DNA of 64,000 bases from a bacterium (GTDB taxonomy: Bacteria; Desulfobacterota; Binatia; DP-6), in contig JAHCID010000002.1 of the NCBI GenBank assembly GCA_026129405.1, positions 62,001 through 126,000 on the forward strand, written 5' to 3'. This document shows, in pieces, positions 17,181-22,675 of the stretch. A model generated the notes under the pieces. The model searched no databases. It was not told the DNA's origin and worked only from the letters and a program-made list of their open reading frames with translations. Position 1 is the first letter of the stretch. Every line of letters begins with the position of its first letter. Both the position numbers and the translations under genes were made by a program.

Positions 17181-18689
<1,509 letters not shown>

Positions 18690-20875: not shown

Positions 20876-21979
20876 TCAGGCGGCGTCGGCGTCCGCGAAG
20901 GGGCCGAGGCGACGGCGCTCGAGCTCGCGCGTCATGACCTCGCGGAAGCGGCGGTTGCGGACGAGCAGGAACACGACCGTGCCGAAGTAGCCGTACGGCA
21001 GCTTCGGGCTCTCCTCCCAGAAGCGCAGCTGCTGGTAGGGCCGCGACGCGAAGGCGTGGTGGTCGGCGTGCCGCGACAGCCCGACGAGCGTGTAGAGCGT
21101 GAAGCGCGAGTCGGTGTCCCACGAGTCGATCGGCGTCACGCGCTTGCCGCGGCGGGCGAGCCCCCAGTGCTCGAAGTAGTTGACGGCCTCGAGCAGGCGG
21201 ATGGCGATCGAGGCGACGAGGAAGTAGGCGAAGAACGCGCCGATGCCGAGCGCGATCCAGATCCCGACGGCGACGGCCCACTCGGCGACCAGACCCTGGA
21301 GCACGCGATGGCGCAGCATGCGCGGATCGGTCCAGCGCATGTGCTCGTCGCCGAGCCGCTTCTTCTCGATGCGCCACGCGCTGCGGAACTGCGCCGGCAG
21401 GGTACGGTACAGGAAGCGGGCGTAGGTTTCGCCGAAGCGGGCGGTCGCCGGATCGTCGGCGGTCGCGACGCGCGAGTGGTGGCCGCGGATGTGCTCGGTG
21501 GCGAAGTGCTCGTACAGCACGCTGCCCATGAGCAGCCGTCCCAGGAAGAAGAAGTGCCCCTGCGGCCGGTGCAGCAGCTCGTGCGCGACGACGATCCCGG
21601 AGTAGCCCGCGTTGACGCCGATCAGGGTGAGCCCGACGAAGGTATCGAGCGTCCAGAAGCCGTGCACCGAGACGCGCCACACGAACCACCCGAGGATCAC
21701 GAAGTGCATCGCGGAGAGGACCCAGAGCACCGAGTCGAACGGCCAGCCGGGGAGGGTGGCGGCCGGCTGCCGGTGCTCCGCCGGGCTCTTCATGTCGACC
21801 AGGACCGAGCCGGCGAGGACGAGCAGCCACGCCGCCGCACCGAAGCCGCTCCACGGCCCGGTGGCGAGGTAGAGGAGGCAGGCGACCGGCAGCACGAAGC
21901 ACAGCAGGTGGGCGATCCAGACCCGCGCGGTCTCGAGAAGGGGGGTGGGGTGGGTGGATGCGGCGGTCGCGGTCGCCAT
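20876..21979 (-). CDS. alkB: AlkB-type membrane di-iron alkane 1-monooxygenase
   Basis: 367 residues from ATG 21979, chosen because GGAGG lies seven to eight bases upstream; an upstream ATG at 21997 would overlap the operator. All four histidine clusters of the AlkB subgroup of integral membrane hydroxylases are present: HELLHR (~133), EHIRGHH (~162), NYFEHWGL (~270) and LSRHADHH (~310). They are separated by the usual six transmembrane helices. Known: AlkB hydroxylates terminal carbons of alkanes with O2, using electrons from rubredoxin. No rubredoxin is fused or adjacent. Regulation looks clear: two palindromes lie between it and the divergent TetR gene. The chain-length range, and whether the true substrate is an alkane or another lipid tail, is unknown. 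Confidence 0.92.
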   Translation of the reverse strand: MATATAASTHPTPLLETARVWIAHLLCFVLPVACLLYLATGPWSGFGAAAWLLVLAGSVLVDMKSPAEHRQPAATLPGWPFDSVLWVLSAMHFVILGWFVWRVSVHGFWTLDTFVGLTLIGVNAGYSGIVVAHELLHRPQGHFFFLGRLLMGSVLYEHFATEHIRGHHSRVATADDPATARFGETYARFLYRTLPAQFRSAWRIEKKRLGDEHMRWTDPRMLRHRVLQGLVAEWAVAVGIWIALGIGAFFAYFLVASIAIRLLEAVNYFEHWGLARRGKRVTPIDSWDTDSRFTLYTLVGLSRHADHHAFASRPYQQLRFWEESPKLPYGYFGTVVFLLVRNRRFREVMTRELERRRLGPFADADAA

Positions 21980-21992
21980 CGAGGTCCTCCGG

Positions 21993-22016
21993 CTCACATA
22001 CGGCTTGGTATGTGAG
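21993..22016. promoter_or_regulatory. Palindromic operator 1, alkB-tetR intergenic region
   Basis: Perfect 9-bp arms CTCACATAC and GTATGTGAG around a 6-bp centre. It lies 13 bp upstream of the alkB ATG, covering the expected promoter or leader. It shares ACATAC-N6-GTATGT with operator 2. Confidence 0.75.
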
Positions 22017-22028
22017 GTCTCCCGGATT

Positions 22029-22046
22029 ACATACGGGCTCGTATGT
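22029..22046. promoter_or_regulatory. Palindromic operator 2, overlapping the tetR start codon
   Basis: ACATAC and GTATGT around GGGCTC. The ATG of the TetR gene (22043-22045) lies inside the right arm. Its centre is 33 bp, about three helical turns, from operator 1. This suggests autorepression. Confidence 0.75.
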
Positions 22047-22675
22047 CGTCAAGCGGGCGCGCCCAGGCCAAGCAGGAGACGCGCGACGCGCTGATCCAGG
22101 CAGGCCTCGCCGCCTTCGCGGCAGAGGGGCTCGACGCGCCCAGCCTGGACGCGATCTGCGCCCGCGCCGGCTTCACCCGCGGCGCGTTCTACGTCCACTT
22201 CAAGGATCGCGACGATTTCCTCGTGGCGGTGATGGAGCACGTCCTGGGCGGCTTCCTCGACGCCGTGATCGCGACCGGCGACGAGGCGAACGACCTGGGC
22301 CACACCCTCGACCGTTTCACCGGCGCGCTCGCGAGCGCTGCCCGGCCGACGGGCGGCCGCGGCCGCGCGGCGAGCCCGCTTCTCGGGCCGGTGCAGCTCT
22401 TCCGCCTGATCGAGGCGGCGGCCCGCTCGCCCGCGATCCGCGGGCGCCTCGTCGCCATCATCGACGAGGCGATCGGGCGCGTGGAGGGCGCGGCCCGCAG
22501 CGGCCAGACGCGCGGGACGGTGCGGCACGACGTCGAGCCGCGGGTGGGCGCACAGCTCCTCGTCGTCGCGGCGCTGGGGCTCATGGGCGCGATCGAGCTC
22601 GGCGTCCCGCTCGACCTGCCGGCGCTGCGCGGCGCGGTGGCGCGTCTCCTCGGTGCGAGCGAGGGCGAGGCGTGA
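22043..22675 (+). CDS. TetR-family repressor divergent from alkB
   Basis: 210 residues. The N-terminal HTH reads ETRDALIQAGLAAFAAEGLDAPSLDAI, then RAGFTRGAFYVHFKDRDDFL, the standard TetR recognition helix and YxHF segment. The remainder is a helical ligand-binding domain. The start codon lies within a palindrome identical in its arms to one beside the alkB start, so the protein most likely represses both itself and alkB until a lipid or hydrocarbon ligand binds. There is no Shine-Dalgarno site upstream; translation may be leaderless. It ends 4 bp before the convergent NUDIX gene. Confidence 0.9.
   Translation: MSSSGRAQAKQETRDALIQAGLAAFAAEGLDAPSLDAICARAGFTRGAFYVHFKDRDDFLVAVMEHVLGGFLDAVIATGDEANDLGHTLDRFTGALASAARPTGGRGRAASPLLGPVQLFRLIEAAARSPAIRGRLVAIIDEAIGRVEGAARSGQTRGTVRHDVEPRVGAQLLVVAALGLMGAIELGVPLDLPALRGAVARLLGASEGEA

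Follow-up and report, generated by a model that had tools for sequence, protein, structure and literature searches.

A conserved twin-operator TetR switch predicted beside an AlkB-like oxygenase gene and exchangeable partner enzymes

The region separating a gene for an AlkB-like membrane di-iron oxygenase from a divergently oriented tetR gene contains two palindromes that very probably constitute the operators of a self-regulating TetR switch. We identified them within a 64,000-nucleotide stretch of contig JAHCID010000002.1 (Binatia), referred to here as the window. Comparison with other genomes indicates that many distant bacteria have the same operator pair next to the same repressor, frequently accompanied by a different enzyme, and it is because of this recurrence that the palindromes look like a real switch. 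The system appears to be a conserved and dedicated one, of a kind that is already known, in which the partner enzyme is exchangeable and the start codon located within an operator is probably a detail of the lineage. The features of the locus are summarized in Table 1.

Table 1. Features identified or predicted at the tetR locus (coordinates of the window)
Feature	Position	Strand	Description
Operator 1 (predicted)	21993..22016		Perfect 9-bp inverted repeat, 6-bp spacer; core 21996-22013
Operator 2 (predicted)	22029..22046		ACATAC-N6-GTATGT; tetR ATG inside
TetR-family repressor gene	22043..22675	+	210 aa; based on PF00440 and start analysis
AlkB-like membrane di-iron oxygenase gene	20876..21979	-	367 aa; divergent from tetR
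Shine-Dalgarno GGAGG of AlkB-like gene	21986..21990	-	Precedes ATG 21979
Imperfect 33-bp direct repeat (79%)	21981..22046	+	Copies 21981-22013 and 22014-22046; each a leader segment plus operator
Candidate -35 box of AlkB-like gene	22047..22052	-	TTGACG (TTGACA in most relatives)
Candidate -10 box of AlkB-like gene	22026..22031	-	TGTAAT; 15-bp spacer
Weak candidate tetR promoter	22005..22033	+	TTGGTA-N17-TACATA; inference only

The first-pass annotation of this DNA had described perfect 9-bp arms in operator 1, the same ACATAC-N6-GTATGT core in operator 2 with the tetR start codon inside it, and a distance of 33 bp between the two centers, all of which is present in the sequence. Operator 1 reads CTCACATAC-N6-GTATGTGAG, while 16 of the 18 positions of operator 2 are self-complementary; the centers fall at 22004.5 and 22037.5, and the ATG occupies positions 22043-22045. 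The frame opens at 22016, and between this point and the end of the tenth codon it contains no ATG, GTG or TTG other than this ATG; no further start codon follows it before the helix-turn-helix (HTH) region. The start of the AlkB-like gene was taken as the ATG at 21979 on the minus strand; an alternative in-frame GTG (21997) lies inside operator 1 and has no Shine-Dalgarno-type site.

The product of the tetR gene contains a TetR_N HTH domain (PF00440, E 2e-10; its 40.7 bits exceed the cut-off of 24), and its predicted structure (pLDDT 81.6, pTM 0.73) shows the all-helical fold of the TetR family. SmeT is both the best PDB match of this model (3p9t, E 2.5e-6, TM 0.71) and the nearest solved structure by sequence (2w53/3p9t, E 4.7e-14). 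A palindromic operator beside the protein's own gene, a further trait of the family, is also present as judged from the sequence. None of the NCBIfam models reached its cut-off: ScbR scored 51.5 bits of the 150 required, MtrR 47 of 280, AcrR 43.5 of 271 and AcuR 36.1 of 247.

The divergent gene matches PF00487 (E 3.7e-24) and the alkane monooxygenases in the PDB (8sbb, E 1.1e-37; 8f6t, E 1.1e-36). Its protein has a FA_desaturase-type domain with the histidine motifs HELLHR, EHIRGHH, NYFEHWG and LSRHADHHA. The canonical HYG-type motif of AlkB proteins, NYxEHYG, is absent, with NYFEHWG instead, and no NCBIfam model matched at E 0.001.

Palindromy as such was rejected as evidence, the window holding seven perfect palindromes with 9-bp arms and a 6-bp gap. 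The case for the predicted operators rests on their shared core and on its conservation across species. With up to two mismatches allowed, the motif occurs at two sites in the window, as against a mean of 0.10 in shuffled sequences, 1 of 100 of which reaches two. A genome scan for ACATAC-N6-GTATGT, put forward in the first-pass annotation as a check, recovered just two exact sites in the whole 5.63-Mb genome, both at this locus. The three extra sites with up to two mismatches are at the level of chance, since the reversed control gave four, and this genome shows no sign of a wider regulon.

Among 148 genomes of the class, the exact pattern ACATACG-N4-CGTATGT was found in eight (the reversed control pattern in two) and the TetR in ten (E ≤ 1e-25, with up to 20 candidates scored per genome). 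All eight motif-bearing genomes belong to these ten (Fisher p 9.6e-12, a guide value, as the genomes are related). Ten of the 12 exact sites adjoin a tetR gene, and the remaining two form a twin on another contig of genome G023. The two genomes that carry the TetR without an exact site are G048, which has a pair with one mismatch per site, and G011, which has no such pair; a single site only is present in G114.

We then extended the comparison beyond the class. A scan with an alignment of ten TetRs yielded 80 loci from records titled Myxococcota, Deltaproteobacteria, Gammaproteobacteria and others. After removal of HTH-only matches devoid of sites (L121-L124) and of duplicates (L055, L056, L057, L059, L062), the remaining loci and the ten class loci amounted to 81, of which 78 were scored; L067, L070 and L075 had no upstream DNA. 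Sites with up to two mismatches within 320 bp upstream were accepted. At least one was found in 61 of the 78 loci, at least two in 50, and a pair 29-34 bp apart in 44 (counterparts of operators 1 and 2, the window included). The maxima obtained with permuted half-sites (n = 59) were 3, 0 and 0, respectively, and the twin operators are therefore not a product of chance. The counts are not independent, because the loci share ancestry; in the subset of TetRs under 60% identity, the corresponding values are 43, 36 and 31 of 51. No site occurs within 320 bp upstream in 17 of the 78 loci, and 11 of the 61 site-bearing loci have one site only.

Spacing of about three helical turns, which would place both sites on the same face of the DNA, had also been proposed, and the survey supports it. 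Of 52 gaps between neighboring sites, 44 measure 29-34 bp, with a mean of 31.7 bp (3.02 turns at 10.5 bp per turn). At 33 bp, the gap of the window is among the longest of this group. The other gaps are of 19 bp (four times) and of 37, 64, 79 and 111 bp (once each).

Whole-genome searches of 14 further genomes of our choice detected 22 exact sites in 12 of them, all but one located at the tetR locus (21 of 22). The other two, both Marinobacter, have no exact site because theirs carry one mismatch. On the TetR tree the sites cluster (11 changes versus a shuffled mean of 17.9, 0 of 500 shuffles being as low; 25 of 78 inner branches are open). In the labels of this tree, L067, L070 and L075 were entered as 'no site', and L107, for which no separate Pfam search was made, as FMO. 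The conserved pair, the co-occurrence within the class and the usual restriction to one locus per genome support the earlier proposal that the palindromes are operators of the adjacent TetR, probably acting on both genes. These sites might instead belong to another regulator, encoded elsewhere, as the G023 twin lying away from tetR before a gene for a 369-aa protein could indicate. Given that all eight exact-motif class genomes, G023 too, carry this TetR, and that exact sites in the 14 other genomes are so closely tied to its locus, we regard this as very improbable.

The twin in question (contig 16 of G023; L040, 5978-6029) consists of operators 34 bp apart. The 369-aa protein has no Pfam or PDB sequence match, and an AurF-like gene lies approximately 2 kb away; the protein is a possible second target of the switch.

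Each copy of the 33-bp direct repeat of the window, a feature that the first-pass annotation did not mention, closes with one operator. The 15-nt operator flanks match at 11 of 15 positions, a value reached by 174 of 200,000 random 15-mers of the window, and among the other paired loci (44 with the window included) the match is 8 of 15 at best. Since the window exceeds every other paired locus in this respect, the repeat may possibly have arisen by a local tandem duplication in its lineage. Such an event could mean that one operator matters and that the second is a by-product, a reading with which the 11 single-site loci would also agree. The pairs 29-34 bp apart in 44 of the 78 loci, with flanks that match less well outside the window, make it improbable.

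Analysis of the intergenic sequence for promoters suggested that the operators are interlocked with them. The best candidate for the oxygenase gene of the window, TTGACG-N15-TGTAAT, matches the consensus at 10 of 12 positions. A fixed-threshold sigma-70 scan of the window (spacer 16-18 bp) gave no match, and no terminator-like site was found either. The best tetR candidates in the window have 7 of 12 matches, five being tied, including TTGGTA-N17-TACATA; no good tetR promoter is visible there, and the promoters of the window are weak.

The three bases that follow operator 2 in the 44 pairs are C (43/44), A (40/44) and A (39/44), which together with the operator letters read TTGACA on the oxygenase strand. 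At the -35 place, 41 of the 44 loci match TTGACA in at least five of six letters, with the best of seven positions taken and with three of the six letters belonging to the operator, whose own ACA supplies the last three in the relatives. A TTG also precedes the G023 twin site that has no adjoining tetR. TTGAC lies further out from the operator in the window (by 3 bp) and in G009 (by 2 bp), a displacement that would be expected if the element were a separate one. At a distance of 15-18 bp there is a -10-like word, with a mean of 3.41 matches versus 2.72 with shuffled spacers (Wilcoxon p 2.7e-6).

Many relatives contain TTGATT-N17-TATGTC on the tetR strand (-35 matches 2.91 versus 2.43 shuffled, p 0.003), and the -10-like TATGTC ends 6-7 nt ahead of the start codon in many of them. 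The TTGATT element is absent from the window, and its conservation may instead reflect its complement, the -10 of the other promoter. We infer from this arrangement that operator 2 fills the spacer and core of the oxygenase promoter, and that operator 1 is located just past the predicted transcription start.

This placement bears on the idea that the palindromes form RNA hairpins in leader transcripts rather than protein-binding DNA. Although operator 1, with its perfect arms, would indeed be situated in the alkB leader, operator 2 would sit in a promoter and not in a leader. Moreover, conservation concerns the sequence itself, beyond pairing (near 2 bits at most half-site positions), the spacing of the pair is narrow and there is no terminator-like site. 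An RNA function of this type is hardly credible.

From the ATG inside operator 2, the first-pass annotation had concluded that both initiation steps are repressed and that the tetR message is leaderless. Repression of translation does not follow from an ATG within the operator, since TetR proteins bind DNA. As a conserved design the in-operator start codon was likewise rejected, since the operator ATG is the sole start within 30 nt in just 10 of the 61 site-bearing loci, the window among them. An ATG at this place is expected from the motif, because the half-site GTATGT contains one. Of the 61 loci, 31 have it in frame, 28 of them with an open frame, and the other 30 do not. A start codon occurs 11-12 nt past it in 25 loci, and in 11 there is no start within 30 nt. 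Within the class, the tetR frames of G056, G054, G048 and G009 exclude it. These figures make it rather likely that the operators are real and the ATG of operator 2 incidental, and that it happens to serve as the in-frame start in this lineage. The loci in which it is the sole nearby start, the window included, count against this, as does the in-frame proportion, which exceeds one in three (p 0.004, computed as if the loci were unrelated).

The leaderless message fared better, on other grounds than the position of the ATG. Two of 50 loci (L052 and G018) have a Shine-Dalgarno match ahead of any tetR start within 30 nt. When one start was picked per locus, at +11/+12 where there is one and the first elsewhere, the count was 0 of 50. 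With tetR starts up to 110 nt further on, the number is 8 of 60, both Marinobacter loci included. For the alkB start, counted leniently, it is 18 of 22. The absence is partly forced, as the operator occupies the position in question. The tetR gene of the window has no such site. Since only 2 of 50 loci possess one, and given the spacing of TATGTC, a leaderless or very short-leader tetR message is plausible in the window and in many relatives, not in all. The promoter-to-start distances fit leaderless tetR in the relatives; the candidate promoter of the window is weak.

Taken together, these features suggest the following mode of action. A TetR dimer would bind each of the two palindromic operators, approximately three helical turns apart. 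Operator 2 would cover the tetR start and lie between the -35 and -10 boxes of the oxygenase core promoter, and operator 1 would fall in the leader of the AlkB-like gene, immediately downstream of its predicted transcription start. With no inducer, both sites would be occupied, the oxygenase blocked and the repressor limited. A hydrophobic inducer, either substrate or product, would release TetR. The tetR message of the window, which has no Shine-Dalgarno site, probably has no leader or almost none, and the level of the repressor would stay low as a result.

In the window and six class relatives, the switch faces an AlkB-like gene. In G018 the corresponding gene is AurF-like (E 1.9e-77), and in G107 it encodes an alpha subunit of the ethylbenzene-dehydrogenase-like type (PDB 2ivf, E 3e-207), to which the EbdA model gives 738 bits, short of the 2000 required. 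A further 20 divergent ORFs, being the nearest long ORFs, may include some that are neither real genes nor targets. They match (i) flavin monooxygenases in three cases (by title, L105 Marinobacter, L116 Oleispira and L120 Alcanivoracaceae), (ii) SDR proteins in four (L079, L088, L092, L117), (iii) epimerase/3-beta-HSD proteins in two (L063, L100), (iv) ABC1 kinases in two (L058, L085) and (v) a cytochrome c in one (L061, E 5.8e-6); the other eight have no match at E 1e-5. The window has a flavin monooxygenase-like gene of its own (17181-18689), 2.2 kb past the AlkB-like gene, which shares 25-26% identity with the switch-facing Alcanivoracaceae and Marinobacter genes.

Tentatively, and with rather more doubt than confidence, the system may be viewed as a portable oxidation switch. 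A single lineage of TetR repressors, its fixed twin operator interlocked with two opposed promoters and its message in many lineages leaderless, starting at or inside operator 2, would in separate lineages have taken up unrelated enzymes as partners (AlkB-like, AurF-like di-iron, ethylbenzene-dehydrogenase-like molybdenum enzyme, flavin monooxygenase, short-chain dehydrogenases). A shared class of hydrophobic compounds may perhaps induce them all. For this TetR subfamily, sequence alone allows a prediction of the operator, of the promoters under its control and of the target locus, which is usually a single one. The subfamily extends from the class of the window to records titled Myxococcota, Deltaproteobacteria and Gammaproteobacteria, including the oil degraders Marinobacter and Oleispira. 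It offers a ready candidate sensor module, and its changing partner enzyme lets one ask what compound the repressor senses.

The tetR-tetA systems of Tn10 and Tn1721 consist of divergent genes with two intergenic operators approximately 30 bp apart, and are autoregulated. The predicted switch resembles them in the divergent TetR and target genes and in the twin operators of one intergenic region. It differs in the operator sequence and the target, in that operator 2 can hold a start codon, and in the varying partner enzyme. According to the excerpted report on AcuR, the tetR of Tn1721 is leaderless (PMC3017554). The same text describes AcuR of Rhodobacter sphaeroides as a TetR-family autorepressor whose transcript starts exactly at the acuR AUG, with no Shine-Dalgarno site and with TTGATT as the -35 box, and which responds to acrylate (PMC3017554). 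The NCBIfam AcuR model matches the HTH part of the window TetR (E 3.9e-9); the operator described in that excerpt is a single 8-bp inverted repeat upstream of the acuR operon, and not a divergent twin (PMC3017554).

Similar half-sites are found in operators of other repressors, as given in excerpts of the respective papers. The AcrR site TACATACATTTGTGAATGTATGTA has ACATAC/GTATGT half-sites, which are 10 bp apart as compared with 6 bp in the window (PMC10597343). Repressors of the SmeT/AcrR type have efflux targets, unlike the switch described here, even though SmeT is the nearest solved structure. Half-sites of the ACATACG type occur in the CprB site ACATACGGGACGCCCCGTTTAT, a single site bound by CprB as a dimer of dimers (PMC4150764), and in the DitR site CATACnnnnnGTATG (PMC9342713). 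The CprB/ArpA-type and DitR operators are thus alike in their half-sites and, as far as these excerpts describe them, differ in spacing and targets.

TetR repressors of alkB-type genes have been described in excerpted accounts of AlkX of Dietzia and AlkU of Rhodococcus (PMC8784404, PMC6921075). According to these texts, the regulator genes of these actinobacteria follow alkB in the same direction, whereas the tetR of the window is divergent, and AlkU has been assigned inverted repeats whose sequence is not that of the window operators. A review states, in the portion retrieved, that TetR control of alkB appears unique to Actinobacteria (PMC8784404). Contrary to this limit, our observations point to TetR control of AlkB-like genes outside that group. 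AlmR was not accepted as a known relative: an Ig-like domain has been predicted for it (PMC11784139), and the retrieved portion of the review gives no family (PMC8784404). Among the matches listed by our literature search, mainly titles and abstract openings, we recognised no account of this operator pair.

Several loci depart from the common arrangement. In L077, a second twin operator (784-833) precedes an alkB-like gene approximately 2 kb from tetR, and the tetR gene itself has a degenerate operator pair. Three operator-like sites in 19-bp steps are present in L069 (2934-2989), and 19-bp gaps also occur in L092 and L115. Genome G030 (L009, 2540-2860) has an alkB-like gene without such a TetR; upstream of it lies a close pair of palindromes of the CCAACC-N4-GGTTGG type, which suggests that another repressor uses a comparable twin arrangement there. 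Finally, two record labels look wrong: L057, titled Klebsiella pneumoniae (MAG), has operators as in G023, and L059, titled Alphaproteobacteria, matches a contig of G056.
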